Source: Desulfonatronovibrio magnus
GTDB taxonomy: Bacteria > Desulfobacterota > Desulfovibrionia > Desulfovibrionales > Desulfonatronovibrionaceae
DNA length: 64,000 bases
Direction: 5' to 3'
Assembly (NCBI RefSeq): GCF_000934755.1
Contig: NZ_KN882176.1
Location: forward strand, 81,124 to 145,123
Part shown: piece after piece, positions 5,405 through 48,594 of the stretch
Layout of the letters: every line of letters starts with the position of its first letter
Position numbering within the stretch: position 1 is the first letter of the stretch
Notes under the pieces: generated by a model
Seen by the model: the letters and a program-made list of their open reading frames with translations, nothing else
What the model was told of the DNA's origin: nothing
Databases searched by the model: none
Made by a program: the position numbers and the translations under genes

Positions 5405-5408
5405 ATAC

Positions 5409-5721: not shown

Positions 5722-5731
5722 AATGTCGAGG

Positions 5732-7352: not shown

Positions 7353-7400
7353 AAAATAAAACGCTCCCACCTCCTATTGTTTGGTAGCCTTATGTTCCTT

Positions 7401-7437: not shown

Positions 7438-7440
7438 TGA

Positions 7441-7550
7441 GGTCCAGGGTCTAAAGTCCAAGGTCCAAAGTCACAAGTCCGAGGTCTCGAGTCAAAGATC
7501 CAAATTATAATACCTTCAGCCTTCAGTCTACAGCCTTTCTCCTTCTTTAC
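7441..7550. repeat. Degenerate 7-bp tandem repeats
   Basis: About nine imperfect units of the type aaGTCCA/aGGTCCA (7441-7503), followed by ccttcagccttcag units (7515-7535). The period is seven bases, as in the arrays at 12564-12632 and 30440-30584. Confidence 0.65.
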
Positions 7551-7559
7551 AAAACCTGA

Positions 7560-8918: not shown

Positions 8919-8968
8919 TGTTGGTCCTGAGATATAGTTAATGTCGTACTGTCTTGAGAGTTAAAAGA

Positions 8969-9010
8969 TCCTTACCCGGGCGGCCCGGGACCGAACGTGT
9001 GAGTAACTTA
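8969..9010 (+). repeat. Rep-A element, copy 3
   Basis: ttacccgggcggcccggg, then accgaacgtgtgagtaact: a near-consensus core with a perfect CCCGGG/CCCGGG palindrome. It lies between activase and dehydratase-like genes. Confidence 0.85.
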
Positions 9011-9125
9011 CATTCAACAAAACCTGGATTCCGGCTTTCGCCGGAATGACGGTAATAAGCTACATTTTGCTTTAACCGTCACCCCGGACTCGATCCGGGG
9101 TCCAGTTTTTTTGGAAGTTACTTGT
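9011..9125 (+). repeat. Rep-F element, copy 1
   Basis: Holds two hairpins, ggattccggctttcgccg and caccccggactcgatccgg, joined by aagctacattttgctttaac. The same string of blocks is present inverted at 28538-28640, again beside a Rep-A copy. Confidence 0.85.
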
Positions 9126-9147
9126 AAGCAATACAATTATCTTGTTT

Positions 9148-12100
9148 TTAAGCCTTACCTGATGTCTGCTTCAAGTCCTTGATAATGTTTTTGACTACGT
9201 TGTCATAGGCTTCAATGCGGGTTATTACACCGGCCACAGCGCTGTGTTCATCCAGCTCAAGGATAAGTGGTGGCTTGTGTTTGAGAATATGTTCGTAAAA
9301 ATGCTCGATAAAAGAGTCAGGACCGCATGAAAAGTTTGTCATATGCACAGCAAACCAGCCAGGGGTGTCAGCAATCAGCTTGGCCACGCGCAAAATGCGT
9401 CCTCCCAGCCCCCAATACATTCTTGGAAAATCTGAGAGGTCGATGTTTTCGTGATCGACAAAATCCATGGGCAGAGCACTGATGCCCAGCTTGGCCAGCT
9501 GCTGGCCGATACGCAGATTGAGCCTTTCATCATAGAGGTTATATGGGCGGCCGGTAACAACCCAGACCGGTCTGTTGGGATCCAGAACTTTCAGAATCTC
9601 CCGGCCCTTTGTCTTGAGGGCGGATTTGAAATCCATCTGTTTTTGCCAGGCTATATGGACAGCTTCTTTGAGCCTGGTTTTCCCAGGATTCAGATTTGCA
9701 GGAAGGCTGTCTGACAGGCTTTGAGCTACACTGTCCGGACCTTCGCGCAAAAACATATTGGGCCTGATGATCTTGTTGTCAGGAATTTTGAGAGCTGCCT
9801 TGACCATGTATTGGGAGCTCTCCACCATGGGGCAGAAAAGCCCTCTCTCACCGTCATCATCAACAGGAGTAGGGATGTTAATGGGGTTAGGCAGAAAAAG
9901 ATAGTCATATTCCAGATCCAACAGCCTTTTAACATGTCCATGAAAAATTTTGACTGGAAAGCATGTTTCAGCTGTCATGGACTCAACTCCGGCTGAAGCA
10001 GTAGCCTGGCTGGTGGGTGGAGACAGTCTGATGTTATAGCCGAGATTAGAAAATATTCCGGCCCATAGCACTCCCCACTCCAGAGAATGCAGAGCCATGG
10101 GTATTGCAATGGTTGGCTTACCTGGAACAGGCTTTTTATCCTTTTCATTGACCACGATAAAATCCATGGGCAGAAATGAATCAAATATTTTTTTACGCTC
10201 AAGAAAAAAATTCCCTGTGATGGCCTGTTGACCTGAGGTACTTTCATATCTGCCGCAATCTCCTCCCCAGATACTTTTGCGCTGGCCAAAGCGATAAATT
10301 TTAAGCTTGCATTCATTATGGCAGTTTTTTTCTGCCCGGCATATGGATTCCTTGAAAGTTACTTCAGTTTTTGCCAATTCTGTCAAAGATCTTGTTCTGG
10401 GTTGAATGTCACCATGATTATACATGTCCATCACAGTCAGTGCTGCCCCAAATGCTCCCATGACCTCTCTATGTTTGGGAACTATAATGGGCTTGTTTAC
10501 CACCCTTTCAAAAGCTGCCACAATACCCTTGTTCAGTGAAGGACCGCCAAGAAACATAATTTTATTGCCAATAGGCCGGTTTTCCACAACCCTGTGCAGA
10601 TAATTGCGAACTATGGCAAAGCACAATCCCGCAATCAAGTCGTTGCGTTTTGCTCCTTTCTGGGCATAGCCCACAAGATCAGACTCCATGAACACAGTGC
10701 ATCTTTCAGCAAGGTTGATGGGGTCCTCTGCAGCTAAGGCAATGTCCTGGAATTCACCCACTATATTGATTTTCATCTTGTTGGCCAGTTCATGAAGGAA
10801 GCTGCCTGTGCCTGCTGCGCATATTTTATTCATTACAAAATCCACAGGATAAGAGTCCTTGATGGATATGTATTTGGAGTCCTGACCGCCAATCTCAAAA
10901 ATAGTATCAATGCTGGAATCCACGGCTACAGCACCTTTAGCATGAGCGGTAATTTCATCAATGACCAGATCAGCATCAATAAAGTCACCCACCACATTTC
11001 GTCCTGATCCGGTAGTGGCAACAGCCTTAAGGTCCACTACAGCTCCCATTTCCTGTTCAAGAGTATTGATCAGTTGTTTGGCCACTTCAATGGGTTTGCC
11101 CTTGGTGGCTACATACTGTTTGTGAATGATGCCTGACTTTGTGTCCACAAGACAATATTTAGTAGAAGTAGAACCGATATCCAGGCCCAGAAAGGCAGGG
11201 ATTCTTGCTTCACCGGAATGTTTTACAGGGTCTAAGCTGTTGTCGGGGTTGAACGAGGAAAGTTTCAGGTCAAGCTTCCTGGCTCTGGGAAACTGATACC
11301 CTGTACCTGTGCCAGCTTCACAAAGTTTTGCAAGGTCCACACTGTTGGAGTGATTCTGCTTGATGGACTGCAGAGCTGCACCTATGGCTCCAAGGGAAGC
11401 GTGACGAGGAGGGACTTCAAGCTCAGGATAGTATTTTTGAAATGCCCGGACCTGCAGTTCGTTGGAAGCCATGCCGCCAATAAAGGCCATGGGAGCGTGC
11501 AGTTTGCGGTTGGAGACAATAGTGCTGAGATAGTTGGCTGCAGTGCCGTGGTGCAGACCGGCAATGATATTGCTCAGACTTTCACCTTTATTTTGAAGGT
11601 GAATCATGTCTGACTTGGTGAAGACTGTGCATCTGCAGGCCACAGGAGCAGGGTATGTGCTGTCAAGGCCCAGCTTGATGAAATCTTCAAGAACGCCCTG
11701 CAACTTTTTTTCATCCATTTCAAAGTTGCCGCCGTACATGGCAAAAGCAAGCCTTTCAGCCTGCTGATCGATAAACGAACCTGTGCCTGAGGCGCATGGG
11801 CTGTTCAAATTAAAAGCCTCAAGATACCATTCATCAAATTTATTGTATTCCAGTTGAAAAAGGGCTGCATCCTGACCGCCTATAGCAATGATGGTCCTGA
11901 CACCGGGCATGGCCTGGGTTGTACCCAGCACCTGGGATATGGTTTCAACCTCAAAGGGTGCATCAAGCATTTTGCTAATACTTTGGCCCTGACTTCCTGT
12001 AAAGGAAACTGACTTGATATCGCTGACAGTGAAAGCCTTGAAAATGTTCTCCAGAGTAGCTGAGGTCTCTTCAATGATAAGGCCAAAATGACGTTTATAA

Positions 12101-12189
12101 GGGGCTTCATGGATTACCTGCCCCTGCTGGTCCAGAACAGCACAATTAACACTGACTGAACCTATATCAACTCCCACATGAAGTTTCAT
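9148..12189 (-). CDS. Two-headed BadF/HgdC-type acyl-CoA dehydratase activase with DUF2229 domain
   Basis: A 1013-residue protein. An ASKHA-fold ATPase domain starts at the N-terminus (MKLHVGVDIGS), a second follows near residue 330 (FLGLDIGSTSTKY), and a DUF2229-type region fills the last 350 residues. Each ATPase head keeps the cysteines that bridge the [4Fe-4S] cluster in HgdC relatives: CASGTG plus CRCTVF in the first, CAAGTG plus ERCTVF in the second. Such proteins use ATP to push an electron onto the partner dehydratase or double-cubane reductase, here encoded at 7560-8918. I set the start at 12189, where an AGGAG precedes the ATG and the ASKHA motif begins at once; the longer frame to 12246 adds 19 unlikely residues. 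Confidence 0.87.
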   Translation of the reverse strand: MKLHVGVDIGSVSVNCAVLDQQGQVIHEAPYKRHFGLIIEETSATLENIFKAFTVSDIKSVSFTGSQGQSISKMLDAPFEVETISQVLGTTQAMPGVRTIIAIGGQDAALFQLEYNKFDEWYLEAFNLNSPCASGTGSFIDQQAERLAFAMYGGNFEMDEKKLQGVLEDFIKLGLDSTYPAPVACRCTVFTKSDMIHLQNKGESLSNIIAGLHHGTAANYLSTIVSNRKLHAPMAFIGGMASNELQVRAFQKYYPELEVPPRHASLGAIGAALQSIKQNHSNSVDLAKLCEAGTGTGYQFPRARKLDLKLSSFNPDNSLDPVKHSGEARIPAFLGLDIGSTSTKYCLVDTKSGIIHKQYVATKGKPIEVAKQLINTLEQEMGAVVDLKAVATTGSGRNVVGDFIDADLVIDEITAHAKGAVAVDSSIDTIFEIGGQDSKYISIKDSYPVDFVMNKICAAGTGSFLHELANKMKINIVGEFQDIALAAEDPINLAERCTVFMESDLVGYAQKGAKRNDLIAGLCFAIVRNYLHRVVENRPIGNKIMFLGGPSLNKGIVAAFERVVNKPIIVPKHREVMGAFGAALTVMDMYNHGDIQPRTRSLTELAKTEVTFKESICRAEKNCHNECKLKIYRFGQRKSIWGGDCGRYESTSGQQAITGNFFLERKKIFDSFLPMDFIVVNEKDKKPVPGKPTIAIPMALHSLEWGVLWAGIFSNLGYNIRLSPPTSQATASAGVESMTAETCFPVKIFHGHVKRLLDLEYDYLFLPNPINIPTPVDDDGERGLFCPMVESSQYMVKAALKIPDNKIIRPNMFLREGPDSVAQSLSDSLPANLNPGKTRLKEAVHIAWQKQMDFKSALKTKGREILKVLDPNRPVWVVTGRPYNLYDERLNLRIGQQLAKLGISALPMDFVDHENIDLSDFPRMYWGLGGRILRVAKLIADTPGWFAVHMTNFSCGPDSFIEHFYEHILKHKPPLILELDEHSAVAGVITRIEAYDNVVKNIIKDLKQTSGKA

Positions 12190-12463
12190 ATGTATTTTAA
12201 CTCCTGATTGTGATAATAGTTTTGCACCACGGCGATAGGGATCCATGGGCCCTGGTTTTCACAAGTACATCAGTCATCCAGTTTCGCTGCAGTGTATAGA
12301 ATAATGGTAGCAGCTTAGCCTGTTGGATATGACGCGAAGACTGGCTTCTTACGGGACTCACTTGTCCAGAAATAAAAGCAATTTAACATAGGTTGATGCT
12401 CAACTGGAAGCCAAAGTGTCTGTCCCCTGTTTTTTTATGAACTGAAAAAACTGTTACGAATAA

Positions 12464-12531
12464 TGACTTTACTGTATGCGATTGGTCTGTATAAACATTG
12501 TTTACAGAATTTTCAAGTTACAGTAAAGTCA
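12464..12531. promoter_or_regulatory. Long inverted repeat upstream of the activase gene
   Basis: Perfect 13-bp arms TGACTTTACTGTA (12464-12476) and TACAGTAAAGTCA (12519-12531) are separated by 42 bases. It lies about 275 bases before the activase start and 140 bases after the methyltransferase stop. No T-run follows, so it is not a classic terminator. It could be a pair of operator half-sites or the ends of a small element. The rest of 12190-12673 holds only repeat fragments (gtgtctgtcccctg, and the array at 12564). Confidence 0.5.
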
Positions 12532-12563
12532 AGTCAAAGGAGGGGGATGCTGATGTTAATATA

Positions 12564-12632
12564 CTGAAGACTTCAGGTTAAAGGCTGAAGGTGGAAGGCT
12601 GAAGGCTGAAGGCTGAAGATGGAAGGCTGAAG
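12564..12632. repeat. GGCTGAA 7-bp tandem array
   Basis: Seven to nine units of GGCTGAA with variants (ggtggaa, agatgga), in phase over about 65 bases. The complement (ttcagcc) recurs in short runs at 7515, 15588 and 35645. Confidence 0.8.
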
Positions 12633-12673
12633 AGAAACACGTAATGCTCCCTTAATGTATGGAGTAAGTCCTG

Positions 12674-13408
12674 TCAGGCCCTTGCCTGTTTTTCCAGGGC
12701 AAGCAAGGGCGTTTTAAGTGGTTTGTTGTCAAGAAGTTCAACCCTTGTTCCGATGAATGAGCCTGCAAAGGGTGGCCAGAATGTCTCATTGATGATGTTC
12801 AGAATACATTTGTCCTTCCACATGGATTTGGTTCCAGGCAAAACTGATCTGGAAAAAGCAGGTTTATTGCCAACAGTTTCCAGGAGCATGGCTTTTAATT
12901 CCCTGAAAGTGAACCAGTTGGCTTGGGCCATTACACTTGATGATCCCATGCGCAGTACTTTTTTGCTGAAGTAGTAAAGAGAATTTTTGTTCAGAGTGCA
13001 GACCAGCATCCCTTTTTTAGTAACTCGCAGTGCTTCGCGAAGAACCTGTTTAGGATCTTCACAAAATTCCAGTACTGTAATGATGGCCGAGAAATCAAAT
13101 TCATTGTCATCAAAAGGAAGGTATTGTGCTCTGCCAAGATGCAGGTCTGCCTTGTTGCCCATTTTTTCTCTCGCTCTGGAGAGCATATTGGCAGAGGCAT
13201 CAATACCATAAACATCAAAGCCTGATTCATAAAAAAGCTCTAAAAACACACCAGTGCCGCAGCCAATATCCAGTAAAGACTGTTTACGTCTAGGCCACGA
13301 TGAAACCAGGTGTTGTATAAGCCGTTTTTCCTGTTGGAAGGCAAATTTTCCAGCCTCAGTTTCAAACCAGTGATCATATTGAAGCGCAAATTTATCTGAT
13401 TCAAACAT
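12674..13408 (-). CDS. SAM-dependent methyltransferase, class I
   Basis: A 244-residue cytoplasmic enzyme of the UbiE/Methyltransf_11 type. The SAM-binding motif I, LLDIGCGTGVF, is at residues 45-55, with an acidic residue ending beta-2 (VYGIDAS) near 70 and the post-I motif AQYLPFDDNEFD near 95. The substrate cannot be read from sequence. The C-terminal half carries many Lys and Trp residues and no extra domain. It follows ilvD on the same strand after 30 bases, so the two are probably co-transcribed, although no functional link is obvious. Confidence 0.8.
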   Translation of the reverse strand: MFESDKFALQYDHWFETEAGKFAFQQEKRLIQHLVSSWPRRKQSLLDIGCGTGVFLELFYESGFDVYGIDASANMLSRAREKMGNKADLHLGRAQYLPFDDNEFDFSAIITVLEFCEDPKQVLREALRVTKKGMLVCTLNKNSLYYFSKKVLRMGSSSVMAQANWFTFRELKAMLLETVGNKPAFSRSVLPGTKSMWKDKCILNIINETFWPPFAGSFIGTRVELLDNKPLKTPLLALEKQARA

Positions 13409-13438
13409 GAATTAATTAATATGGAAAAAATCTTAAAG

Positions 13439-15106
13439 TTATGACCGTAAAACAGCTCCTGACGCAGCTGATCCTGCGTCCCGGCTGTATCGTTTAAGAA
13501 ATGACGAGCTGATTTCCTTTACTACGGGTTTGTAGTCCTTTTTTCTCTTACTGATGGTGTTTTCATCTACACAAAGGGTTAAAGCCCCTTTAAAAATATC
13601 TATTTCAATCTCATCTCCTTCCATAACCAGTGCAATGAGACCACCTTCAGCGGCTTCAGGAGAAACATGGCCTATTGCTGCTCCTCTTGTGCCTCCACTG
13701 AACCGGCCATCAGTAATAAGAGCCACATCTTTATCCAACCCCATTCCAGCAATGGCTGAAGTAGGAGTAAGCATTTCACGCATACCCGGGCCGCCTTTGG
13801 GACCTTCATTTCTGATGATGACTATATCCCCCTTGTTGATTCTGCCTGATAAAATTGCCTCCACAGCTTGTTCTTCGCCTTCAAAAACACGGGCATTTCC
13901 TTTCTGAACCATCATTTCCCGTGCAACGGCTGATTGCTTGACCACCGCGCCCTGGGGGGCCAGATTTCCTTTAAGTATGGCAATGCCTCCCTCAGAACTG
14001 TAAGGGTCATCAATGGGCCTTATAACATTATAGTCCAGAACTTTAGTACCTGCTGACTTAATGTACTGACCCCATGTGTTGCCTGTAACTGTAGTGGCAT
14101 TAAGGTCAAAAATATTTTTCCTGGCCAGTTCAGACACAATGGCGGGAACGCCTCCTGCCCGGTGCAGGTCCTGCAGATGATGCGGACCCGCAGGGGAAAG
14201 ACGACAGAGGTTGGGAGTCTTTCTGCTCATTACATCGAAGATATCAAGATTAAGGTCCAATCCGGCCTGTGCAAAAATGGCTGGCAGGTGCAGAACAGTA
14301 TTGGTGGAACATCCAAGGGCCATATCTACAGCCACGGCATTGGCAACGCTTTTGGGAGTGATAATATCTCTGGGCTTAATGTCTTTCTTAAGAAGATCCA
14401 TAACCCTCATGCCTGCAGTTTTAGCCAGCCTGATGCGGGCGCTGGTTACTGCAGGAATGGTTCCATTGCCCGGTAAAGCCAGACCTATGGCCTCAGACAG
14501 ACAGTTCATGGAGTTTGCTGTGAACATCCCGGAGCATGACCCGCAGCCAGGACATGCGTTTTCCTCAAGCAAGCTTAGCTCATCCTCGGTCATTTGACCG
14601 CTTTTTACCTTGCCTACTCCCTCAAACACGGAAATCAGATCAACAGCCTCACCCTTAAATTCTCCTGCCATCATAGGGCCGCCACTGATGATAAGAGAAG
14701 GAATATTGACGCGCAGCATGCCCATAAGCATTCCTGGTACAACTTTGTCACAGTTGGGAATAAGAACCAAAGCGTCAAATGGGTGTCCCATGGCCATTAT
14801 TTCAACAGAATCCGCAATCAGCTCCCGGCTGGGCAGACTGAAACGCATGCCTTCATGGTTCATGGCCAGACCATCGCATACTCCAATGGTGGAAAATTCC
14901 ACAGGAGTACCACCGGCCATTCTTATGCCTGCTTTTACTGCAGCTGATATACGGTCCAGGTTTGTATGTCCGGGGACTATTTCATTGGCAGAGTTAGCTA
15001 CGCCAATTAGAGGCCGGTTCATTTCTTCCTTTGTCATGCCCAGTGCATGCAGGAGAGATCTATGTGGCGCCTTTTCCAGGCCTTTTGTCATTTTGTGGCT
15101 TCTCAT
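13439..15106 (-). CDS. ilvD: Dihydroxy-acid dehydratase
   Basis: Iron-sulfur enzyme of branched-chain amino acid synthesis, converting 2,3-dihydroxy-isovalerate and its homologue to the 2-keto acids. The 555-residue length is typical. Cluster and Mg motifs are visible: [10 protein letters not shown] and [16 protein letters not shown], plus the C-terminal signature [12 protein letters not shown]. The frame is open for another 57 codons upstream, but these read through the Rep-D and Rep-E area. The ATG at 15106 has AAGGA upstream and begins at the conserved N-terminus, so I use that. No leader attenuator was seen. Confidence 0.95.
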
Positions 15107-15204
15107 AAAAATCCTTATTAATTGTTGTGTTACAAAGTCAGATGCGGGCTTTACCCGCAACACTGTTGTCGATTGCCTGTTATCAGTAACTCTCAAGTCT
15201 TTAT

Positions 15205-15345
15205 CACTACAGCGACACTTTGCTTTAATTATTGCCTCAGCCACCGGAGACAGGCACTTTTGCCGACCTAAAATCATAAAAAGGCCGGACTATCCGGCGG
15301 CAAAAGAGCCAGTCCCCTTCCAGCTTAAATTAAGTGTCGCTTTAG
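15205..15345 (+). repeat. Rep-D MITE-like element, copy 1
   Basis: About 140 bp with imperfect terminal inverted repeats: the left end contains CTACAGCGACACTT, the right end AAGTGTCGCTTTAG. An inner inverted repeat is ttttgccg ... cggcaaaa. Second copy at 19886-20030. Confidence 0.8.
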
Positions 15346-15382
15346 TAACTTACCGTTTCAATACTGTAAAAAAACAATTGGA

Positions 15383-36649: not shown

Positions 36650-37729
36650 TCAGTTTACTCGTTCAGTGTGTTTTTCAGAGTATATCTGATGAACCAGGTC
36701 CCTGTCCCAGACAGGCTCAGACCATTGGGCTGTGTGCTCAAGCTCTCCTGGCCATACCAGCAGCTCCCGTGTTTCGCCATTATGACTGACTAAAACATCC
36801 ACCTGCCTGTTAGATTGTCTGGCCTTGGGAGAAAATCTGCTCAGCACTTCACAGGCGCTTGCTACAATTTGTTCAGGCCAGGGCTGATTGTTTAAAATTC
36901 TGCCCAAACCAAGAGGACCGGGAAACATCTTTAGTTTAATAATATAGTCGTTTTCTGTGCTCAGCTCCTCAAGAAATGCATTGTCGTCCTTGTTTCGGCC
37001 AATGGTCAGCCAATAACTGGAACTCCACATTTGTCTGCCGGTATTGGCCAGCATAAAGTCTTCAGGTTTCAGATTAGAAACATGCTGCAGCAAAGGCAGA
37101 TATCTTTTGGAGGATTCTTTTTCCGTGAGCAGGCATCCCCCTGCAGGTGTTGGAACAGGATGGATATTGAATTTTTTGACTAAGCGCATCTGGTCTTTTC
37201 TGCCTCTTCCGGAAATGCTTTCAAGCTTACTCCTGTCTACGATTCCTGCTTCCTCTACAGTAGTGGGCTTTAAATGATGAGCTGAAAGAGGGCGAACAAG
37301 GATACCCTTAACATCAGCCTCGCGTAAAATGATATTCAAGGCATCTCGTCTCTGGGACATTGGCCTTTGTCCAACAACTTCTCCAGATACAATAAATTTA
37401 GTCTGGTACCTGTGCATCAGTTCTCTGGCCTTTTTAAGCATAATAATTTTACAGTCAACGCATGGATTTAGAATTTTTCCAGTTCCATACTGAGGGCCAC
37501 TCTGCACCATACTGATAAACTCTTTTGATATATCAACTTTTTCTACAGGAATATGATACTGTTTTTCCCACTTAGCTATTCTTTCAGGATGACCAAAAAA
37601 AGGAGAGCAAAAGTGCAGGCCAAGGACTTTGAGCCCTTGTTCCTGAATGAGGTGAATCGCTAATATTGAGTCCAGCCCTCCGGAGAAAAGAGCAACGCCA
37701 TCAAAGTTCTGGTTGAGATATTTTGTCAT
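36650..37729 (-). CDS. PP-loop ATPase, MnmA/ThiI-like tRNA thiolation protein
   Basis: 359 residues. The ATP pyrophosphatase motif SGGLDSILA is at 16-24. Cysteines that could carry sulfur are in LHFCSPFFG, NPCVDCK (about 88-93) and PAGGCLLTEKE (about 198). This resembles the MnmA/ThiI PP-loop group, with a C-terminal domain unlike MnmA. Proteins of this kind in sulfate reducers are often labelled thiouridylase, but the tRNA position is not established. The partner exchanger gene gives no clue. Confidence 0.72.
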   Translation of the reverse strand: MTKYLNQNFDGVALFSGGLDSILAIHLIQEQGLKVLGLHFCSPFFGHPERIAKWEKQYHIPVEKVDISKEFISMVQSGPQYGTGKILNPCVDCKIIMLKKARELMHRYQTKFIVSGEVVGQRPMSQRRDALNIILREADVKGILVRPLSAHHLKPTTVEEAGIVDRSKLESISGRGRKDQMRLVKKFNIHPVPTPAGGCLLTEKESSKRYLPLLQHVSNLKPEDFMLANTGRQMWSSSYWLTIGRNKDDNAFLEELSTENDYIIKLKMFPGPLGLGRILNNQPWPEQIVASACEVLSRFSPKARQSNRQVDVLVSHNGETRELLVWPGELEHTAQWSEPVWDRDLVHQIYSEKHTERVN

Positions 37730-38266: not shown

Positions 38267-38354
38267 GGAGGGATGGCCGAGTGGTTGAAGGCGGCGGTCT
38301 TGAAAACCGTTGACCCGAAAGGGTCCGGGAGTTCGAATCTCTCTCCCTCCGCCA
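38267..38354 (+). tRNA. tRNA-Ser (UGA)
   Basis: 88 nt with encoded CCA. Acceptor GGAGGGA pairs with TCCCTCC; anticodon loop CTTGAAA gives anticodon TGA, reading UCN serine codons; a long variable arm (GACCCGAAAGGGTC) marks a class II tRNA; the T-arm GTTCGAATC is canonical. The DNA on the 3' side turns accessory (decayed sequence, a toxin-antitoxin pair, a catabolic operon), as often seen at tRNA integration sites, but I found no second copy of the tRNA 3' end in the window. Confidence 0.97.
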
Positions 38355-38923: not shown

Positions 38924-39331
38924 TCAGAATTCCCGGCAGAAGATATCAGGAGTAATAATACGGGTTTGCCCATGGCTGCCTATCTGCAAAAGGCTGGAGC
39001 GCTTGTCCCCTGTGATGAGGAAGTCCGCTCTACCAGCCTGGGATAGTCCCAGCAGAAAAGCATCATCCGGATCATTGGCTTGCATGCCCATAGGCAGTTT
39101 TTCAACAAGGTTGCCACGGCTAAGGTGGTTAATCAGGGTTCCCACCCGGTGGCCCTGTAGGATTCGTTGCAATTTGGGGTAACGACTGGCCTGCCGGATT
39201 TCCTCTATCTGTTGGCGGCAGGTGATAAGCTCGAAGCGGCCATCCTGCCAAGCCTGGAAGATTTTGTGAGGAGGAGCGTACGGGGAGATCAGGGCGGAAA
39301 GCAGTACATTGCTGTCCAGTACCACACGCAT
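38924..39331 (-). CDS. PIN-domain toxin
   Basis: 135-residue PIN-fold putative RNase of the COG1569 type. Acidic active-site residues are at Asp6 (VVLDSNVLLSAL), Glu near 44 and the DPDD cluster near 88, with ITGDK near 107. Its start shares one base with the stop of the upstream RHH antitoxin gene (TGATG), the classical coupled arrangement. The pair is more GC-rich than the surroundings, which suggests transfer. Confidence 0.88.
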   Translation of the reverse strand: MRVVLDSNVLLSALISPYAPPHKIFQAWQDGRFELITCRQQIEEIRQASRYPKLQRILQGHRVGTLINHLSRGNLVEKLPMGMQANDPDDAFLLGLSQAGRADFLITGDKRSSLLQIGSHGQTRIITPDIFCREF

Positions 39332-39906: not shown

Positions 39907-39941
39907 TTGAAGTTGTCAAAAAAAGTTGTTGACAACTTCAA
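39907..39941. promoter_or_regulatory. Perfect inverted-repeat operator overlapping the -35 of the catabolic operon
   Basis: 13-bp arms TTGAAGTTGTCAA (39907-39919) and TTGACAACTTCAA (39929-39941), nine bases apart, no mismatch. The right arm contains TTGACA (39929-39934), a consensus -35, with AATAGT (39953-39958) as a fair -10 at 18 bases. A protein bound here would block RNA polymerase; the regulator encoded 50 bases downstream is the obvious candidate. Confidence 0.75.
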
Positions 39942-39991
39942 ATTTTTGTTGAAATAGTAAGACAAGTAACGATCAAAGAAGGTAGGCAATC

Positions 39992-40651
39992 ATGAGCGAA
40001 ATAAAAAAATGCATTTTTGAGAATTACATAAGAATGGCTGAGGGCATAGCTGAGCTTTTTGGCCGAAATTGTGAAGTTGTGATTCACGATTTCGAGAAGC
40101 TGCCAAACTCGCTGGTGCATATAGAGGGTGACGTTACTCACCGCAAAATTGGTGCCCCTATCACAGACATGGTGCTTAGAGCAATGCGACGTGAAGGGCC
40201 CAACGTCAAGGACCATAAAAATTATCCCACACTGACCAGCGATGGCCATAAGATGAAGTCCTTCACCAGCTACATACGTGATCCCGAGGGCGAAATCATG
40301 GGTGTTTTCTGCATTAATTTCGATATTTCTGACTTTATCAATTCAATCGGTCTGATAGAAGATTTATGCAGAGTAGCGGATGCAAGTGATGATCGCTCTG
40401 AAACTTTTGCCTCGTCGCTCAACGAGACTGTTGATGCACTCATGGAGCGTGCAGTAAAATCAATGGGGAAGTTGCCTTCCGCCATGACCAAAGAAGAACG
40501 GGTACAGTTCGTGGAATCCTTAGAGGACCATGGTGTGTTTCTTATAAAAGGCAGCGTTGAGCTTGTGGCCCAAGCCATGGGCGTATCCAGATACACTGTC
40601 TACAATTATCTCAAAGAAGTTCATGCCAAGACAGGAAAAGTCATTTCATAG
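39992..40651 (+). CDS. YheO/DauR-family transcriptional regulator
   Basis: 219 residues. An N-terminal PAS-like YheO domain (about 15-125, with NCEVVIHDFEKLPNS and GVFCINFDIS) and a C-terminal helix-turn-helix (about 185-215, VELVAQAMGVSRYTVYNYLKE). DauR of this family controls D-arginine catabolism in Pseudomonas and responds to a ligand. Here it heads an operon for an amino-acid-like substrate, so it probably senses that substrate or an intermediate. Likely autoregulated through 39907-39941. The ATG is preceded by GAAGG. Confidence 0.85.
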   Translation: MSEIKKCIFENYIRMAEGIAELFGRNCEVVIHDFEKLPNSLVHIEGDVTHRKIGAPITDMVLRAMRREGPNVKDHKNYPTLTSDGHKMKSFTSYIRDPEGEIMGVFCINFDISDFINSIGLIEDLCRVADASDDRSETFASSLNETVDALMERAVKSMGKLPSAMTKEERVQFVESLEDHGVFLIKGSVELVAQAMGVSRYTVYNYLKEVHAKTGKVIS

Positions 40652-40698
40652 GGACTGCAAACCTTTCGCAATAGAAATTACAAAAAGGAGAACACCGT

Positions 40699-41088
40699 AT
40701 GAGTAAAAACAAAATTATTGTCAGCACAGACAAGGCGCCGGCAACTATCGGTCCATACTCTCAGGCAGTCAAGGCTGGTTCCCTGGTCTTTGTGTCCGGA
40801 CAATTACCTATAGAATCTGCAACAGGAGAGCTCCTGGAAGATACAATTGATAAACGCATGGATTTAGTTTGCAGCAATGCCCTGGCCGTACTCGAAGCCG
40901 CCGGTTGCGATGCATCTCATGTGGTTAAGACAACAATTTTTTTGACGGATATTGCTGACTTTCAGACCGTCAATAATGTGTACGCAAAGTATTTTGGCCA
41001 GGAACCTCCAGCGCGTTCTGCTGTGCAGGTTGCTGCTCTGCCCAAAGGCGCAAATGTGGAAATGGAACTAATAGCTAACATCAGCTGA
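40699..41088 (+). CDS. ridA: RidA enamine/imine deaminase
   Basis: 129-residue YjgF/YER057c/UK114 protein. It hydrolyses reactive 2-aminoacrylate and related enamines to the keto acid plus ammonia. Signature regions are visible: APATIGPYSQAVKAG at 14-28, VFVSGQLP, and the C-terminal PPARSAVQVAALPKGANVEME with the substrate-binding Arg (PARSAVQV). 2-Aminoacrylate is precisely what the next enzyme would release, so RidA fits as pathway partner and detoxifier. AAGGAG ribosome site. Confidence 0.94.
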   Translation: MSKNKIIVSTDKAPATIGPYSQAVKAGSLVFVSGQLPIESATGELLEDTIDKRMDLVCSNALAVLEAAGCDASHVVKTTIFLTDIADFQTVNNVYAKYFGQEPPARSAVQVAALPKGANVEMELIANIS

Positions 41089-41103
41089 ACAACTGGAGGC
41101 ACT

Positions 41104-42120
41104 ATGCATCTTTCAAGATTCCCTCGTCGAGGGTATGTTAATATTCCCACTCCCATCGAGTTCGCATCTAACCTCACGGAACTCCTTGGCGGTCCTCAAA
41201 TCTACATTAAACGTGATGATCTTCTGCCCGGTGCAGGTGGAGGTAACAAAACCCGTAAGCTGGACTTCTGCATTGCAGACGCTTTGCAACAAGGAGCTGA
41301 CACCCTGATAACCTGCGGAGCGGTTCAGTCGAATCACTGTCGGCTGACTTTAGGCTGGGCGGCCAAGGAAGGTCTGCGCTGCAGGCTGGTATTAGAGGAA
41401 CGTGTGCCTGGAAGCTACAAGCCTGAAGCCAGCGGAAACAACTTTCTCTTCCATCTCATGGGGGTGGACAAGGTCACGGTAGTTCCGGGCGGTTCTAACA
41501 TGGGCGAAGCCATGGAAGAAGCAGCAGAAAATGCCCGCAAGCAAGGGTTAAAACCCTACATAATTCCGGGTGGCGCATCCAATCCGTTAGGCGCTCTGGG
41601 ATATGTGTCATGCGCCATGGAAATGCTGGGGCAGCTTTTCGAGATGAAGCTGGATCTCGACCATGTGGTGGTGCCTTCTGGGAGCGCAGGAACTCACGCC
41701 GGCATGCTCACTGGCTTGTGGGGCGCTAATACCGGCCTGCCTGTCAGCGGCGTCAATGTAAGCAGGACTAAGGCTGAACAGGAAGCATTAGTTCACGGAC
41801 TTACTGAGAAACTTGCAGACACTCTTGGCTTGCGCAGCGCCACTCCAGCGGAAGAAGTGGTTTGCTACGACCAGTATGTCGGCCCGGGCTACTCCCTGCC
41901 CACGGATTCCATGGTAGAGGCCGTTTCCATTCTCGCCAAGACCGAAGCCATCCTGCTGGACCCTGTGTACTCGGGAAAAGCAATGGCTGGCATGATCGAC
42001 CTGATACGCAAGGGCGTTTTCAGCAAAGGCCAGAAGATCTTGTTTCTTCATACAGGTGGTTCACCGGCGCTCTATGCCTACTTAGACACATTCCGTCACC
42101 AAGGGCCTGCCAAGGCTTGA
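41104..42120 (+). CDS. D-cysteine desulfhydrase / L-cysteate sulfo-lyase family PLP enzyme
   Basis: 338-residue fold-type II PLP enzyme of the ACC deaminase family. The PLP lysine is Lys52 (GGGNKTRKL), the re-face Asn-His pair is in AVQSNHCR (near 77), and the phosphate loop is SGSAGTHAG near 197. DcyD converts D-cysteine to pyruvate, sulfide and ammonia; CuyA in the same family converts L-cysteate to pyruvate, sulfite and ammonia. I cannot separate these by eye. The GGGNKTRKL form, with T instead of L, and the dedicated TRAP importer lean toward a cysteate-like substrate. RidA upstream fits either reaction. Confidence 0.85.
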   Translation: MHLSRFPRRGYVNIPTPIEFASNLTELLGGPQIYIKRDDLLPGAGGGNKTRKLDFCIADALQQGADTLITCGAVQSNHCRLTLGWAAKEGLRCRLVLEERVPGSYKPEASGNNFLFHLMGVDKVTVVPGGSNMGEAMEEAAENARKQGLKPYIIPGGASNPLGALGYVSCAMEMLGQLFEMKLDLDHVVVPSGSAGTHAGMLTGLWGANTGLPVSGVNVSRTKAEQEALVHGLTEKLADTLGLRSATPAEEVVCYDQYVGPGYSLPTDSMVEAVSILAKTEAILLDPVYSGKAMAGMIDLIRKGVFSKGQKILFLHTGGSPALYAYLDTFRHQGPAKA

Positions 42121-42198
42121 GGATACTGTAACAAAGTTACCAAGGCTTTTAAATATGGAAACATTTAAACACATTCCAACCATCCAGGAGGACTTAAA

Positions 42199-43218
42199 AT
42201 GAAAATGTTCAAAATCTCTGCCATCGCTATTGCTTGCATGCTTGTTTTTGGCATGACCACGCTGCAGCCGCAGGAGGCGTCTGCTAAAAAAATTGTGATC
42301 AGGCTTGCCCACCCCAATGTCCCTCAACACCCCATGGGGGAAGGCTTTGCATATTTTAAAGAGTTAGTGGAAAGACGCAGTGAGGGACGTATTGAAGTAA
42401 TCCACTATCATAGCAGCCAGTTTGGAAATTTTGACAGTGTAGTACAGGGGCTTCAGACCGGCATGCTCCAGATGGGCTCTGCTTCTACGCCAAATCTGGC
42501 ACCTTTTTCAGACGCTTTTCTAATTTTTGATATGCCTTTTATTATACCAAGCTATGAAGCCAGCGACTTGATCACTGACGGCCCAATAGGACGTCAGGCC
42601 ACCTCTGCTTTGGAAGGTACTGGTATTTTTGGTTTGGGATATATTGAAATTGGTTTTCGCCATCTTTTTAATGGCAGACGTGCAATTCAAAGTCTGGACG
42701 ATGTTCAAAATCTCCGGATTCGTTCTACTGCCAGCAGAGCACATATATCTACCTTGAATCATCTTGGCGCCAATCCCACCCCCATTTCCTGGGGTGAGGT
42801 CTTCACCGCACTGCAGCAGGGTACTGTAGATGGTATCGATATTGATTTAAACTTAGCCTGGTTCAATAACTTTCACGAAGTACAAGATAATCTGACGCTG
42901 GTTGGCAGTTTTTATAGCCCGCATCTGGTTATGATTTCCGAAATTTTTTATAAAAGCCTCAGCCCTGCAGATCAGATGTTGATTACTGAAGCCTTTACTG
43001 AAATGAAACTATTTCAGCGCGCTAAGATCCGCAGTAATGAAGAAATGATTCTTGAGGAGATGCGCAAGAAGGGCGTAGAGATTGTCAGGCTCGATCCAGA
43101 AGAACGTGCACGCTTCCAAGAGGCTACCCAGGCAGTTATTGCTGAGTTTGAAGAACGTGTAGGCAAGGATCTTATCGAACAAGCTCGAGAAACAGTCAGG
43201 GAGTATGAATCTCAGTAA
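42199..43218 (+). CDS. dctP: TRAP transporter substrate-binding protein (DctP family)
   Basis: 339 residues. A cleavable signal peptide ends at ASA (about residue 29). The mature part shows the DctP pattern: IRLAHPNVPQHPMGEG, the GNFDSVVQGLQTGMLQMGSA segment, and Arg in NLRIRSTAS (about 175), the residue that typically salt-bridges the carboxylate of the ligand. It captures the substrate in the periplasm and hands it to DctQM. First transporter gene after the PLP enzyme (78-base gap), with a ribosome site AGGAGG. A strong stem-loop follows it. Confidence 0.92.
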   Translation: MKMFKISAIAIACMLVFGMTTLQPQEASAKKIVIRLAHPNVPQHPMGEGFAYFKELVERRSEGRIEVIHYHSSQFGNFDSVVQGLQTGMLQMGSASTPNLAPFSDAFLIFDMPFIIPSYEASDLITDGPIGRQATSALEGTGIFGLGYIEIGFRHLFNGRRAIQSLDDVQNLRIRSTASRAHISTLNHLGANPTPISWGEVFTALQQGTVDGIDIDLNLAWFNNFHEVQDNLTLVGSFYSPHLVMISEIFYKSLSPADQMLITEAFTEMKLFQRAKIRSNEEMILEEMRKKGVEIVRLDPEERARFQEATQAVIAEFEERVGKDLIEQARETVREYESQ

Positions 43219-43235
43219 AAGTATCAGGAAAGTAA

Positions 43236-43259
43236 GTGCGGGCAGCCTTCTGCCCGCAC
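43236..43259 (+). terminator. Intercistronic stem-loop between dctP and dctQ
   Basis: Perfect 10-bp stem GTGCGGGCAG / CTGCCCGCAC with a CCTT loop, followed by AAAAAATC rather than a T-run. More likely an mRNA-stabilising or partial-termination hairpin that keeps binding protein in excess over the membrane subunits, as in other solute-binding-protein operons. Confidence 0.7.
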
Positions 43260-43286
43260 AAAAAATCATTCATGAGGACCACATAA

Positions 43287-43796
43287 ATGCGTAAATTTTT
43301 TAATTTTTTTAATCGTATTGAAGAGATTCTATCTTCCCTGTTTCTTGGCGGAATGATTTTGATAATAGCAATACAGGTTTTCAATCGATATGTACTGCAA
43401 AGCTCTTTGTCCTGGTCAGAAGAATTGGGGCGGTATCTTTTCATATGGGCGGTATTTATTGGTTGTAGCTATGCGTCCTTAGAAGACAGGCACCTGGCTG
43501 TCACGGTATTAAGAAATTACGTAAGGCCTCGAATAAAAATCTTAATTATTGGACTATCATGTTTATTGACTATCTTTTTTTGTATTTTTTGCGCTTATTA
43601 TGGTATTAAAATGTTGTCTTTGCTAAATGCTACTGGCCAGCAAGCTCAGACCATGGATATTAAAATTTACTATGCTTACCTGTCTATCCCTGTTGGATTC
43701 ATATTGATGGCTTTACGGAACGTCCAATTGATATGGAAATTATTCAAAGGGACGCATCCTGTTTTTTTAAAAGACACAGACGCTGGAACGATCTAA
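43287..43796 (+). CDS. dctQ: TRAP transporter small membrane subunit (DctQ family)
   Basis: 169 residues with four predicted membrane helices (about 14-34, 48-68, 88-110, 127-150). Characteristic SWSEELGRYLFIWAVFIGCSY near 42 matches the DctQ signature region around the second helix. It forms the integral complex with DctM. Start ATG at 43287. Confidence 0.9.
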   Translation: MRKFFNFFNRIEEILSSLFLGGMILIIAIQVFNRYVLQSSLSWSEELGRYLFIWAVFIGCSYASLEDRHLAVTVLRNYVRPRIKILIIGLSCLLTIFFCIFCAYYGIKMLSLLNATGQQAQTMDIKIYYAYLSIPVGFILMALRNVQLIWKLFKGTHPVFLKDTDAGTI

Positions 43797-43819
43797 AAAT
43801 TGTTAACGGAGTAATTTAG

Positions 43820-45091
43820 ATGGATATATCTATAGTGTACGTCATGGTCTCGCTCTTTATTTTCCTGCTCCTTAGCTTACCTATCGGGGTAGCCATCGGC
43901 TTGAGTGTGCTCATAGGTATATGGACAGGCAATATATCATACGCGTTTATAATCCAGAAACTTTTTACTTCCTTAGACAATTTTCCAATCCTGGCAGTGC
44001 CTTTTTTTATTATGGCTGGGGAAATTATGATGAAGGGCGGTATGGCCCAGAGACTATTGGACCTCTCTCGTTGTCTAGTTGGACACATAACTGGAGGACT
44101 GGCACAGGTTACAGTACTTACAAGCATGTTTTTCGGCGCTTTGAGTGGATCCGCTCCTGCTACTACTGCCGCTGTTGGCGGCATCATGATTCCTTCCATG
44201 AAAAAAGAAGGGTATGATCTGCCTTTTGCTACTTCAGTAAGTACCGCTGCTGGATGTGTAGGTGTAATGATTCCTCCCAGTGTGCCCTTAATTATATATG
44301 GTACAACTGCAGGAGTTTCAGTTGGATCTCTCTTTATTGCGGGCATTATCCCCGGCATCTTTGTTGGCTTAGTCTTAATGCTGACATCCTATATATTGGC
44401 CAAGCGTAAAGGATATACAGGGGCAGGGCAATGTTTTGACATTAAAAAGCTACCCCAGGCACTTTTAAAATCTATCCATGCACTCCTGGTTCCAGTTATC
44501 ATCCTTGGTGGTATTTATGGTGGAATTTTCACTCCCACTGAGGCCGGTGCTGTTGCCGTGGTCTACGCGCTTTTTATGGAGGGTCTGATTGTACGCTCAT
44601 TAAGTTTAAAAATATGTTGGGATATTCTACGTAAAACTGCGTTAACTACTGCTTCAATTTTTTTGGTTGTTGCCACAGCAACCGCATTGGGTCAGATTTT
44701 TCTGTTCCATAATGTGCCTGACTTGATGGTAGAATTCTTAATTGGAATTTCTGAAAATAAGTATGTAGTGATACTCATTATTATCGTATTTCTGTTAGTT
44801 ATGGGAACTTTTATGGATGCTTTGGCCAATATCCTTATCTTGACTCCTTTGTTGCTGCCGGTTGTTAAGCATTTTGGGATGGATCCCATCCACTTTGGTA
44901 TAGTTATGATTGTAACTATTTCCATGGGCTTTATTACACCTCCGGTAGGCGTAAACCTTTTCGTGGGCTGTGGTATCAGTAAAATTTCCATAGAGCGATT
45001 AAGTTTTGCAATGCTGCCCTTTCTAATTGCTATGCTCATAGCACTTTTATTTTTGATATTTATTCCTTATTTGAGCTTGGCTCTGCTATAG
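43820..45091 (+). CDS. dctM: TRAP transporter large membrane subunit (DctM family)
   Basis: 423 residues with about 12 helices. Motifs of the family: AVPFFIMAGEIMMKGGMAQRL near 56, GALSGSAPATTAAVGGIMIPSM near 108, GVMIPPSVPLIIYG near 147, and GFITPPVGVNLFVGCGIS near 373. It is the ion-coupled translocation subunit, driven by Na+ or H+. It sits 23 bases after dctQ and 20 before the amidase. Confidence 0.93.
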   Translation: MDISIVYVMVSLFIFLLLSLPIGVAIGLSVLIGIWTGNISYAFIIQKLFTSLDNFPILAVPFFIMAGEIMMKGGMAQRLLDLSRCLVGHITGGLAQVTVLTSMFFGALSGSAPATTAAVGGIMIPSMKKEGYDLPFATSVSTAAGCVGVMIPPSVPLIIYGTTAGVSVGSLFIAGIIPGIFVGLVLMLTSYILAKRKGYTGAGQCFDIKKLPQALLKSIHALLVPVIILGGIYGGIFTPTEAGAVAVVYALFMEGLIVRSLSLKICWDILRKTALTTASIFLVVATATALGQIFLFHNVPDLMVEFLIGISENKYVVILIIIVFLLVMGTFMDALANILILTPLLLPVVKHFGMDPIHFGIVMIVTISMGFITPPVGVNLFVGCGISKISIERLSFAMLPFLIAMLIALLFLIFIPYLSLALL

Positions 45092-45111
45092 ATGAGATGA
45101 GATAAAAGGTC

Positions 45112-46476
45112 ATGTCCACTCTGCTGAGCAATGAGATATTAATGTATGGTTTAAAAGGTTTTGCTAAGCGCCTGCGCTCTGGTGAAACTACCGCTTTGCA
45201 CGTAACTGAGTCATGCTTGACCCGTATCGAAGCCCTGAATCCCAAGCTCGACGCATTTGTCCATATTGCATCTGAGCAGGCCTTAGAGACAGCTCGAGCA
45301 ATAGATTCGCTACTTGCTGCAGGCGTTGACCTTGGCCCCCTCATGGGTGTGCCTGTCGCTGTAAAGGACATCATTGCGGTTCAGGGCATGCCCACCCGTG
45401 CCGGATCATGCATAGATATCGCTGACCTGATCGGCCAGGAAGGCAGGTTCATAAAGACCCTGAAAAGTAAAGGCTGTATAATTCTCGGAAAAACCCGAAC
45501 CATTGAATTTGCTGCAGGAGGACAAAATACCACACACCCAACTCCCTGGAACCCTTGCGACCTGGACGTACACCTAACTCCAGGGGGCTCGAGCAGCGGC
45601 TCGGCAGTAGCCATGGCCGCAGGGCTTTGCGGTTTGGCCCTGGGCTCGGATACCGGAGGCTCCGTGCGCGCTCCGGCGGCCCTTTGTGGCGTCTTCGGCC
45701 TCAAGACTACCTGGGGACTCTGGCCACTGGACGGCATCTTTCCATTATGCCCCAGCATGGATTCCATCGGTCTGCTCTCTGCTACTGCTACCGACGCTGC
45801 CTGTTTCTTTTCAGCCTTAGACTCAAGCGAGTCCTTAAAAATCCCAGATATCCGTGGCCTTAGATTTGGCGTGCCAGAAAACCATTTCTTCGATGACTTA
45901 GACCCCATGGTGCAGAAAACCGTGGAAAATGCCCTTCAGCAAATCCAGGACAAGGGGGCAATACTAATTCCCATTGATCTGCCAGAAGCCCCTGAGGTTA
46001 AGGATATCTTTGCTAAGATGGTCTCCTCTGACCTCCTGGCCAGCATCGGAGAAGAACGCTATCTACGGGAACGTGAAAATATAGATCCTGTGGCTGTCGG
46101 AAGGCTGGATATGGCCAGGGAGACTAAGGCTGCAGAGTACATTACGCTGGCCCGACGCTATGAGGAACTGGGGGAACTCGGCACGAAGCGACTCCATGGA
46201 CTGGATGGGTTTCTTTGTCCAACAACTCCTTTGCTGCCTCAACCGCTCAGCCAATGTCTCACTCCTGAAACTGCCGGTGCTTTTACTGCACGTTCATTAC
46301 ATAATACAAGACCTGGCAATGCTTACAACCTGTGTGCGGCAACACTGCCACTGCAAAGTGGCAGCCTGCCTGTAGGCTTACAGGTGCACTGCTCCCCTGG
46401 AAAAGAACGAAGATTGCTGGAAATCTGCATGGCTTTCGAGAAAATTCTGGATCGTCCACAAACTTGTTCATTTTGA
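45112..46476 (+). CDS. Amidase signature family hydrolase
   Basis: 454 residues with the Ser-cisSer-Lys triad: Lys85 (GVPVAVKDI), Ser160 (PGGSSSGSA) and Ser184 (GSDTGGSVRAP). The family hydrolyses amides or N-acyl bonds; GatA differs in length and partner genes. As last gene of the operon it may open an amide or N-acyl form of the imported amino acid before the PLP enzyme acts. No signal peptide, so cytoplasmic. Local GC is higher than for the transporter genes. Confidence 0.88.
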   Translation: MSTLLSNEILMYGLKGFAKRLRSGETTALHVTESCLTRIEALNPKLDAFVHIASEQALETARAIDSLLAAGVDLGPLMGVPVAVKDIIAVQGMPTRAGSCIDIADLIGQEGRFIKTLKSKGCIILGKTRTIEFAAGGQNTTHPTPWNPCDLDVHLTPGGSSSGSAVAMAAGLCGLALGSDTGGSVRAPAALCGVFGLKTTWGLWPLDGIFPLCPSMDSIGLLSATATDAACFFSALDSSESLKIPDIRGLRFGVPENHFFDDLDPMVQKTVENALQQIQDKGAILIPIDLPEAPEVKDIFAKMVSSDLLASIGEERYLRERENIDPVAVGRLDMARETKAAEYITLARRYEELGELGTKRLHGLDGFLCPTTPLLPQPLSQCLTPETAGAFTARSLHNTRPGNAYNLCAATLPLQSGSLPVGLQVHCSPGKERRLLEICMAFEKILDRPQTCSF

Positions 46477-47979
46477 AAGACAGTTCTATTTGATGACTAT
46501 TTGACACTAAAGGACATGAATTGACAGATATAAGGCTTCTCAAAACGGCATGACTGCTCTCGGTAATAAATTACCGAGCACCCAAGCAGCTTACGCTGTT
46601 AACGTGTCCAGCCCTACACGCAAAATATTTTTAGCTGCGGCGCCCCTCTGTGTAGCCTGCATCCACAAGAATAAACGTGAGTACTGGTAGATAAAGTTTT
46701 CTTAACTCTATTTCCACAGTCAGGACATGTCCGTGATGTATAATGAGACGGAATTGAGATCACGGTTTTTCTTGCCAGGAAAACCTGACTTATATGCGCC
46801 GCACCATGACCAGACCTATATTTGCTTCACCCCCCCTGCTTCATAAGAGGGTGCTGTATCAATTTAGTTGACACCCAGATCAAGAGCTCTAGTATCCGGT
46901 TAAAAGTTCAATAAACACGTCATATTCAGGCATGGCTGTGGTTTTGCCAAGACAGACGAACTTGGTGGACATGTTCCAAAAAATGGACCTGAGAAGGTGA
47001 CCTCTGGACTCAAAATTTGTCAAAAATGTGATAGAGCCTTATACCCTCTGTGCCAATGAGTGAGACACCGACCATTTGAGAGTTTACGAAAGATTGGTGT
47101 AAAAATGGATATAGTAAAGATGAGGATTACGGCTATTTTTCTGGAATGGTCCATCCCCCTGAATTTTGAAGACTACCTGCCTCCCGGAGGTGCTGATCCA
47201 GGGGCCATGCTTTGGGTCAGGCATACTATCCATACGCCAAAATGATCGCCTATGACTCTGAGGGGAAAAGCCTTGGGCCATTCTGGGATGGACCAGAAAA
47301 CTATGGAAAGCCAAAATGATGCGTGAAAAAGGCTGGAGTTACTGTGGACAAATGATTCAATTGTTGCAGAGTCTTGATTACTCAATCACATTGAAAAAGT
47401 GTTTGGGTCAGAGGAATAATCAGAATTTTTAGCTTATGCTAATTGTGAAGACTGGTAAAAGAAAGCTTGACAATTCAGGCAGTTTTGGACTTCTCTCAGT
47501 GAATGCACGTAGTCTTCATTTCAGGCTCTGATTACATAGCATTTTTTTCTTGACTCGAATTAATGCCATGCTTTAAGTCATGTGAAGCATTTCACTCTTA
47601 AAATTTCTCCCTTTAACAAAAAATGAGCAGTGAATGAAAGAAAACTGTCCTGCACAAATAATTCAACTGGATACTTGGTTTTTAAGCCCGGTGCAGGCAT
47701 AAAATGTGGACCGAACATCCAGGGTTGAATATTCACGCCCATCTCCCGCCTACAGGTTGGGGATGGGCTTTTTTTATCTCATGATACGCTGGATCACAGA
47801 ATAGAAAAGAGTATAGCTACCCATTTTTTCTTGTCGAGTAATTTGATCTTACGACTTCCATTTATCTTCTTTCTGAATATCAAACGTGGTATAGCTTTAT
47901 TTGTTTCTATGCTTTGATGTTAATATGTGATTTATTCTATGCTGACCTTTTCATTAATTTTTTGCTCCTGGAGGTTGAA
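46477..47979. other. Decayed, gene-poor stretch
   Basis: About 1.5 kb without an intact gene. An 8-bp hairpin CTCGGTAA/TTACCGAG (46559-46578) lies behind the amidase. Around 47060-47440 several short open pieces in different frames (e.g. a readable FEDYLPPGGADPGAMLW segment) follow each other as if one gene had suffered frameshifts; I do not recognise it. An orphan terminator is at 47737. Confidence 0.5.
47737..47776 (+). terminator. Orphan rho-independent terminator
   Basis: gcccatctccc pairs with ggggatgggc (one bulge), followed by ttttttt. No intact plus-strand gene lies directly before it, which supports loss of a former gene in this stretch. Confidence 0.7.
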
Positions 47980-48594
47980 ATGAAATTTTTACGAAATGTT
48001 ATTTTTGCTGTTTTTTTCATTCTCTATGCTTCGTCCTCTTATGCATATCTTATTCAAGACTTTTCATCCTGGTATAATCAGGATCAATCTTTTACTCATT
48101 CAGGGTCAAGTACGACAGTAAGTGCAAATTACGATGTACACTTAGGTAACAGATTTGACGGCGTGCCTATAGGCATGCTCAGCAAAATTACAGTAAATGA
48201 TTTTTCTCGAGCAGGAGCTGCTGGAATAGGCATGACCTTAGGCGAAATTGACGGTAGAGAAGTTGTCGTAAATATTGGTTTAAGTGCTGCTGAGTATTAT
48301 TCAGAAATATACTATCAAATCAGACTAAAAGAAGGCAACAATTTAGAAGATGTTGCTTATGGCAGATTTGGCGGAGATAACGAACCTGTAGTAGGAAATG
48401 AATTCCATGTGGGGATGGCTCGCTTTGGGGGTGAGATATGGATGTTAGTGGATGGGTATTCTCTGGTTAAGTGGTCTCCCTTGTCACAAATGAATCATAT
48501 TCCAACTAATACATGGCTCTGGGCGTGGGGTAACGAGGCTATTGAAGGTCAAATAAACGCAACATTCAGTGATGTATTTATTATAAATCCATAG
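47980..48594 (+). CDS. Secreted protein of unknown function
   Basis: 204 residues with a clear signal peptide (MKFLRNVIFAVFFILYASSS then YAY, cleavage near 23). The mature part is neutral to acidic, rich in Gly, Asn and Tyr, with strand-like segments (GIGMTLGEIDGREVVVNIGL, FHVGMARFGGEIWMLVDGY) that suggest an all-beta, jelly-roll-like fold. I do not recognise the family. GGAGG precedes this ATG; the frame is open 22 codons further upstream without a ribosome site. Isolated gene between decayed DNA and a transposase remnant. Confidence 0.6.
   Translation: MKFLRNVIFAVFFILYASSSYAYLIQDFSSWYNQDQSFTHSGSSTTVSANYDVHLGNRFDGVPIGMLSKITVNDFSRAGAAGIGMTLGEIDGREVVVNIGLSAAEYYSEIYYQIRLKEGNNLEDVAYGRFGGDNEPVVGNEFHVGMARFGGEIWMLVDGYSLVKWSPLSQMNHIPTNTWLWAWGNEAIEGQINATFSDVFIINP

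Follow-up and report, generated by a model that had tools for sequence, protein, structure and literature searches.

A TRAP-linked CuyA operon of Desulfonatronovibrio magnus predicted to import and desulfonate cysteate

Gene content of the operon

The window, a stretch of 64,000 nucleotides (nt) from Desulfonatronovibrio magnus (contig NZ_KN882176.1, positions 81,124 to 145,123), carries between positions 39992 and 46476 seven genes, all on the plus strand, which, judging from their sequences and neighborhoods, probably allow this sulfate-reducing Desulfobacterota bacterium to take up and desulfonate cysteate. The products are a YheO-type regulator, a RidA family protein, a pyridoxal 5'-phosphate (PLP)-dependent lyase, the three components of a tripartite ATP-independent periplasmic (TRAP) transporter, and an amidase, and the intergenic gaps in gene order are 47, 15, 78, 68, 23, and 20 nt.

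39992-40651, plus strand, YheO-type transcriptional regulator with PAS_6 and HTH_22 domains (Pfam), 219 aa
40699-41088, plus strand, RidA family enamine/imine deaminase with the PARS motif (R106) present, 129 aa
41104-42120, plus strand, CuyA, predicted PLP-dependent D-cysteate sulfo-lyase (NCBIfam equivalog, tree, and motifs), 338 aa
42199-43218, plus strand, DctP, TRAP substrate-binding protein, predicted C3-sulfonate receptor
43287-43796, plus strand, DctQ, TRAP small permease
43820-45091, plus strand, DctM, TRAP large permease
45112-46476, plus strand, amidase-signature hydrolase (Pfam PF01425, 257 bits) with intact K85-S160-S184 triad motifs

Positions, order, and families agree with the first-pass annotation of this DNA, which had described regulator, RidA, PLP enzyme, TRAP importer, and amidase as one plus-strand operon. 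The family labels of all seven products were backed by Pfam and NCBIfam (PAS_6+HTH_22, Rid, CuyA, DctP, DctQ, DctM, and Amidase), and the TRAP set of DctP, DctQ, and DctM is complete in Pfam. The grouping exceeds chance, since the operon RidA is the sole RidA in the 4.8 Mb genome and the RidA-CuyA and CuyA-DctPQM orders recur in many genomes.

Identity of the PLP lyase

The window lyase scored 513.1 bits against the CuyA equivalog NF052482 ("D-cysteate sulfo-lyase"), above the cut-off of 450, and the Ruegeria pomeroyi CuyA (megaplasmid, locus L032), to which it is 49% identical, scored 553 bits on the same model. In trees of 125 homologues it was placed in a mostly Desulfobacterota CuyA clade with a Shimodaira-Hasegawa-like approximate likelihood ratio test (SH-aLRT) value of 96-97, and Escherichia coli DcyD and the 1-aminocyclopropane-1-carboxylate (ACC) deaminases fell outside the CuyAs. 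The set of 119 CuyAs including the characterised R. pomeroyi enzyme received moderate support (SH-aLRT 84). Placement against CuyA and DcyD, which the first-pass annotation had listed as a check, groups the lyase with the CuyAs, and the clustering with ACC deaminases that it had named as a refutation was not seen. The lysine motif of the lyase is GGNKTRK, and its closest solved structures are the D-cysteine desulfhydrases 7ysk and 4d8t.

Two other identities were tried and rejected: ACC deaminase, with only 243 of the 392 bits on TIGR01274 and with VYSGK and HTGG replacing VYEGK and HLGG of the aligned ACC deaminases, and the D-cysteine desulfhydrase DcyD, with 290-307 bits on the PRK03910 equivalog models against cut-offs of 429-610.

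TRAP transporter

Among solved structures, the window DctP is closest to the isethionate receptor IseP (8t9t), its best PDB match. Using the IseP ligand residues listed in PMC11668362, 7 of the 10 compared are kept in the window DctP (Arg156, Arg177, Ser95, Asn98, Trp200, Ser242, and His244), and the CuyA-linked DctP orthologues have a nearly identical residue set, but with Ser95 frequently replaced by Ala. In locus L190, the same TRAP clade, accompanied by a gene of the orphan family X described below, stands between SAF/GD_AH (SuyAB-like) proteins and a TauE-type exporter, which links the TRAP clade of the window, as far as its neighbors indicate, to C3 sulfonates. The GD_AH protein of L190 is very probably SuyB; no SuyB call was obtained from NCBIfam, and this label comes from its 75% identity to a protein in the hpsNO cluster of Cupriavidus pinatubonensis.

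Proposed pathway

Dissimilatory sulfite reductase (dsrA, 623 bits) and aprA were found in the genome, in line with the earlier view of the host as a sulfate reducer able to use sulfite. The RidA protein, with its catalytic Arg in the PARS motif, reached 162.7 bits on the Rid family model TIGR00004 (cut-off 106), and the suggestion that it acts after a beta-eliminating PLP enzyme gains support as a reading of the sequence. Gene content, families, recurrence, and synteny were obtained directly, as was the presence of dsrA and aprA; the substrate and its enantiomer, the activities of the enzymes, the regulation, and growth are inferred. DctPQM would import a C3 sulfonate, most likely cysteate, and CuyA would then catalyze the PLP-dependent beta-elimination of sulfite, preferably from D-cysteate, to give 2-aminoacrylate, whose hydrolysis to pyruvate and ammonia RidA would accelerate. 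Sulfite could pass to DsrAB as an electron acceptor, with pyruvate as a possible donor, and the YheO-type regulator would control the operon.

This scheme resembles the CuyB-CuyA cysteate dissimilation, in which CuyB racemises L- to D-cysteate and CuyA favors D-cysteate (PMC11382572); here, too, a CuyA-type lyase would yield pyruvate, ammonia, and sulfite from a likely cysteate substrate. The window differs by having no CuyB in the operon or genome and by adding the TRAP importer, RidA, the YheO regulator, and the amidase. The respiration-fermentation idea of the first-pass annotation is plausible but not new, as cysteate-based sulfite respiration has already been described: a passage of PMC6278857 refers to 1996 work on cysteate as a sulfite donor in anaerobic respiration.

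Recurrence in other genomes

The seven-gene combination had been considered unfamiliar at first; locus L080 has all but one of the seven genes in an identical order (regulator-RidA-CuyA-DctP-DctQ-DctM-X, where X is an orphan family), and the ridA-cuyA-dctPQM core is widespread and common in Desulfovibrionales. Operons of the type ridA-cuyA-dctPQM-X, with RidA, CuyA, and TRAP ordered as in the window, were found in Desulfovibrionales, Desulfobulbaceae, and Desulfobacterales (L043, L056, L063, L080, L165, and L167-L178). They carry X where the window operon has the amidase and often a GntR-like gene instead of the YheO regulator, which occupies the first place in both the window operon and L080. 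The YheO-type regulator also adjoins RidA-CuyA in L041, L078 (Desulfotruncus arcticus), and L207, and, in divergent orientation, in L076. At the R. pomeroyi cuyA locus, a TRAP operon likewise accompanies CuyA, there 1 kb upstream, but the regulator is of the LysR type, a sulfate-exporter-family protein adjoins CuyA, and the DctP is unrelated.

Among the 119 CuyA loci, 24 adjoin a window-type TRAP transporter, with RidA next to cuyA in 21/24, X nearby in 21/24, and a racemase nearby in 1/24, compared to 13/95, 1/95, and 36/95, respectively, in the remaining loci. Because some of the genomes are related, two pairs are identical, and DctP served in part to find the TRAP-type loci, the counts lack independence, and p-values on them are descriptive only.

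In other sulfate reducers, CuyA adjoins HpsN. Two genomes of the same family (L205, positions 3358-15354, and L206) carry HpsN, an alcohol-dehydrogenase-like gene, TRAP, RidA, and CuyA, to which L205 adds an aldehyde:ferredoxin oxidoreductase and a CuyB-like racemase; this gene set is likely a 2,3-dihydroxypropane-1-sulfonate route via cysteate. Halodesulfovibrio-type genomes (L168, L172, and L174/L056) have two neighboring, very similar cuyA copies.

Synteny within the genus

The same-genus genome G433 (locus L207) shares the flank of the operon, namely an exchanger, a ThiI-like protein, and tRNA-Ser(tga). After this flank, L207 continues with regulator-RidA-CuyA, followed by genes for a racemase and for an SDF symporter most similar to GltP (glutamate/aspartate type). 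Neither of the last two is present at the syntenic site of the window, where DctPQM and the amidase stand instead. The L207 racemase is 51% identical to a protein of L045 that reaches 273 bits on the CuyB model (cut-off 190), and at other loci, racemases homologous to it and encoded next to CuyA score above the CuyB equivalog cut-off. The presence of a CuyB-type racemase and this symporter in the syntenic operon is the best evidence that the window operon concerns cysteate and not cysteine.

Vertical inheritance of CuyA shared with the syntenic L207 locus was judged unlikely from the approximately unbiased (AU) test, which rejected the pairing of the two CuyAs (p 0.0027, for a pair chosen after the tree was seen). 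On this phylogenetic ground, CuyA at the window locus has likely been replaced or exchanged.

Substrate and source of D-cysteate

Cysteate, which the first-pass annotation had considered beside D-cysteine, was supported as the substrate over D-cysteine or ACC by the CuyA equivalog, the tree, the CuyB-type racemase in the syntenic operon, and the sulfonate-linked TRAP clade. The following points weigh against cysteate as the substrate. CuyA is also able to act on D-cysteine, and Taurinivorans muris, a CuyA-encoding relative, showed no growth with cysteate (PMC10507020). The window genome, 97.5% complete, contains no CuyB homologue and no PF01177 (Asp/Glu) racemase, so that L-cysteate is not obviously usable by the host. 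In DctP, the IseP residues Asp77, Tyr153, and Asn217 are replaced by Phe, Ile, and Ile (D77F, Y153I, and N217I), for which reason the ligand is expected to differ from isethionate, and since the two conserved arginines (Arg156 and Arg177) are also typical of carboxylate receptors, the assignment of the ligand is provisional.

For L-cysteate itself, which the first-pass annotation had considered as a possible substrate, the way to the lyase is less obvious, since CuyA prefers the D-enantiomer (PMC11382572) and CuyB is absent from the genome. Genomes with the TRAP-type operon as a rule lack the racemase, 15/18 of them having no CuyB orthologue. A protein at least 50% identical to the CuyB query is encoded in just three, G589, G422, and G586, the last with one in-frame stop, and the other genomes have no CuyB relative or distant ones of at most 32% identity.

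Family X, which fills the slot of the amidase in related operons, comprises proteins of approximately 410 aa in which His, Asp, and Glu residues are invariant and which have the motif GHxGVGHxHSHxGFxQDD; they are encoded directly 3' of dctM in TRAP operons with and without a link to CuyA:

L043, 5581-6837, family X gene
L063, 4250-5479, family X gene
L080, 14214-15491, family X gene
L190, 9378-10622, family X gene
other loci, further family X genes

Sequence searches of Pfam, NCBIfam, PHROGs, and the PDB gave no relevant match, nothing significant was obtained by Foldseek with the AlphaFold2 model (predicted local distance difference test [pLDDT] 71, predicted template modeling score [pTM] 0.75), and family X was not found elsewhere in the window genome. 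In VIA-align, residues 52-182 of the model resembled, with a Z of about 11, the cap found at the N-terminus of enolase-superfamily proteins, a modeled likeness too slight for naming a function.

Within the cysteate reading, D-cysteate may be imported directly, the amidase being a passenger with an unrelated role. We regard this as a fair candidate that falls short of an even chance: it agrees with the 15/18 racemase-free genomes and with an amidase specific to the lineage, whereas free D-cysteate is not known to be an abundant natural compound. Somewhat doubtful is the import of L-cysteate followed by racemisation through an alanine racemase paralogue, which would make the operon a CuyB-CuyA pathway with a non-orthologous racemase; two Alr-family proteins scored above the cut-off in this genome, which has neither CuyB nor a PF01177 racemase, but neither gene is near the operon and no sulfonate gene was seen in the 9-10 kb read around each. 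It is unlikely that the TRAP transporter imports an amide or N-acyl form from which the amidase frees cysteate in the cytoplasm before CuyA acts, with a perhaps comparable task for X in relatives. The amidase gene lies 20 nt 3' of dctM, has intact triad motifs, and occupies the X slot, but it is barely conserved, with one further strong match among 348 class genomes (E <= 1e-70, 39% identity), and the pocket of DctP has the same residues as in relatives carrying X rather than the amidase. The suggestion, drawn from the amidase, of an N-acyl or amide natural substrate is thus a guess, the amidase being the one gene of seven that does not recur.

Across genomes, TRAP-linked CuyA operons might represent a racemase-free branch of cysteate metabolism that imports D-cysteate or a conjugate, with X (in the window, the amidase) as an undescribed enzyme making the C3 sulfonate usable, e.g., a metal-dependent racemase or hydrolase; we offer this as a speculation with the odds against it.

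Finally, a desulfhydrase operon for D-cysteine or another D-amino acid, releasing sulfide rather than sulfite for detoxification or carbon and nitrogen supply, is very improbable: the shared fold family with the closest solved structures, the activity of CuyA on D-cysteine, and a DauR/YheO-type regulator, known from D-arginine catabolism, speak for it, but the lyase passes the CuyA cut-off and falls below those of DcyD, the syntenic neighbor pairs a CuyB-type racemase with a glutamate/aspartate-type symporter, and the TRAP clade is tied to SuyAB-like genes. Cysteate uptake and desulfonation remains the probable function.

Upstream region and other features

The following further features were located in the window:

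39907-39941, strand not stated, candidate operator, perfect 13-bp inverted repeat TTGAAGTTGTCAA-N9-TTGACAACTTCAA, overlapping the promoter-like -35
43236-43259, plus strand, strong GC-rich 10-bp hairpin in the dctP-dctQ gap (-21.7 kcal/mol, z -3.6)
38267-38354, plus strand, tRNA-Ser(tga), conserved syntenic landmark 5' of the operon

The promoter-like site 5' of the operon consists of a -35 TTGACA (39929-39934) and a -10-like AATAGT (39953-39958). The window contains the core pattern of the candidate operator a single time, and 0/100 shuffles contain it; the repeat was absent upstream of the five related regulators examined. The hairpin could affect the ratio of receptor to permease.

Upstream of tRNA-Ser, a ThiI-like PP-loop protein fused to an NFACT-R_2 domain (36650-37729) is conserved in the genus. 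A PIN-like open reading frame, judged by eye (38924-39331, minus strand), lies between tRNA-Ser and the operon, with no counterpart seen in L207. Downstream, a 226-aa protein encoded at positions 47914-48594 may have a signal sequence and matched nothing in Pfam.

Significance of the operon

The operon is a variant of a known pathway and not a new system, and TRAP-type clusters could already be part of the gene-neighborhood analysis of the 2024 CuyB study, which limits any claim of novelty. Its unusual features are the lack of CuyB or an Asp/Glu racemase in the genome and an amidase where relatives carry orphan family X. Cysteate arises by oxidation of cysteine, and sulfonate-derived sulfite fuels sulfide formation in sediments and guts. 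In sulfate reducers, cysteate uptake would be recognisable from the TRAP-linked CuyA operon type, which would serve as its genetic marker. A gap comes to light as well: the lyase reportedly prefers D-cysteate, but the known racemase is missing from most genomes that bear the operon, and in its place stands a conserved gene whose family neither Pfam nor NCBIfam contains.

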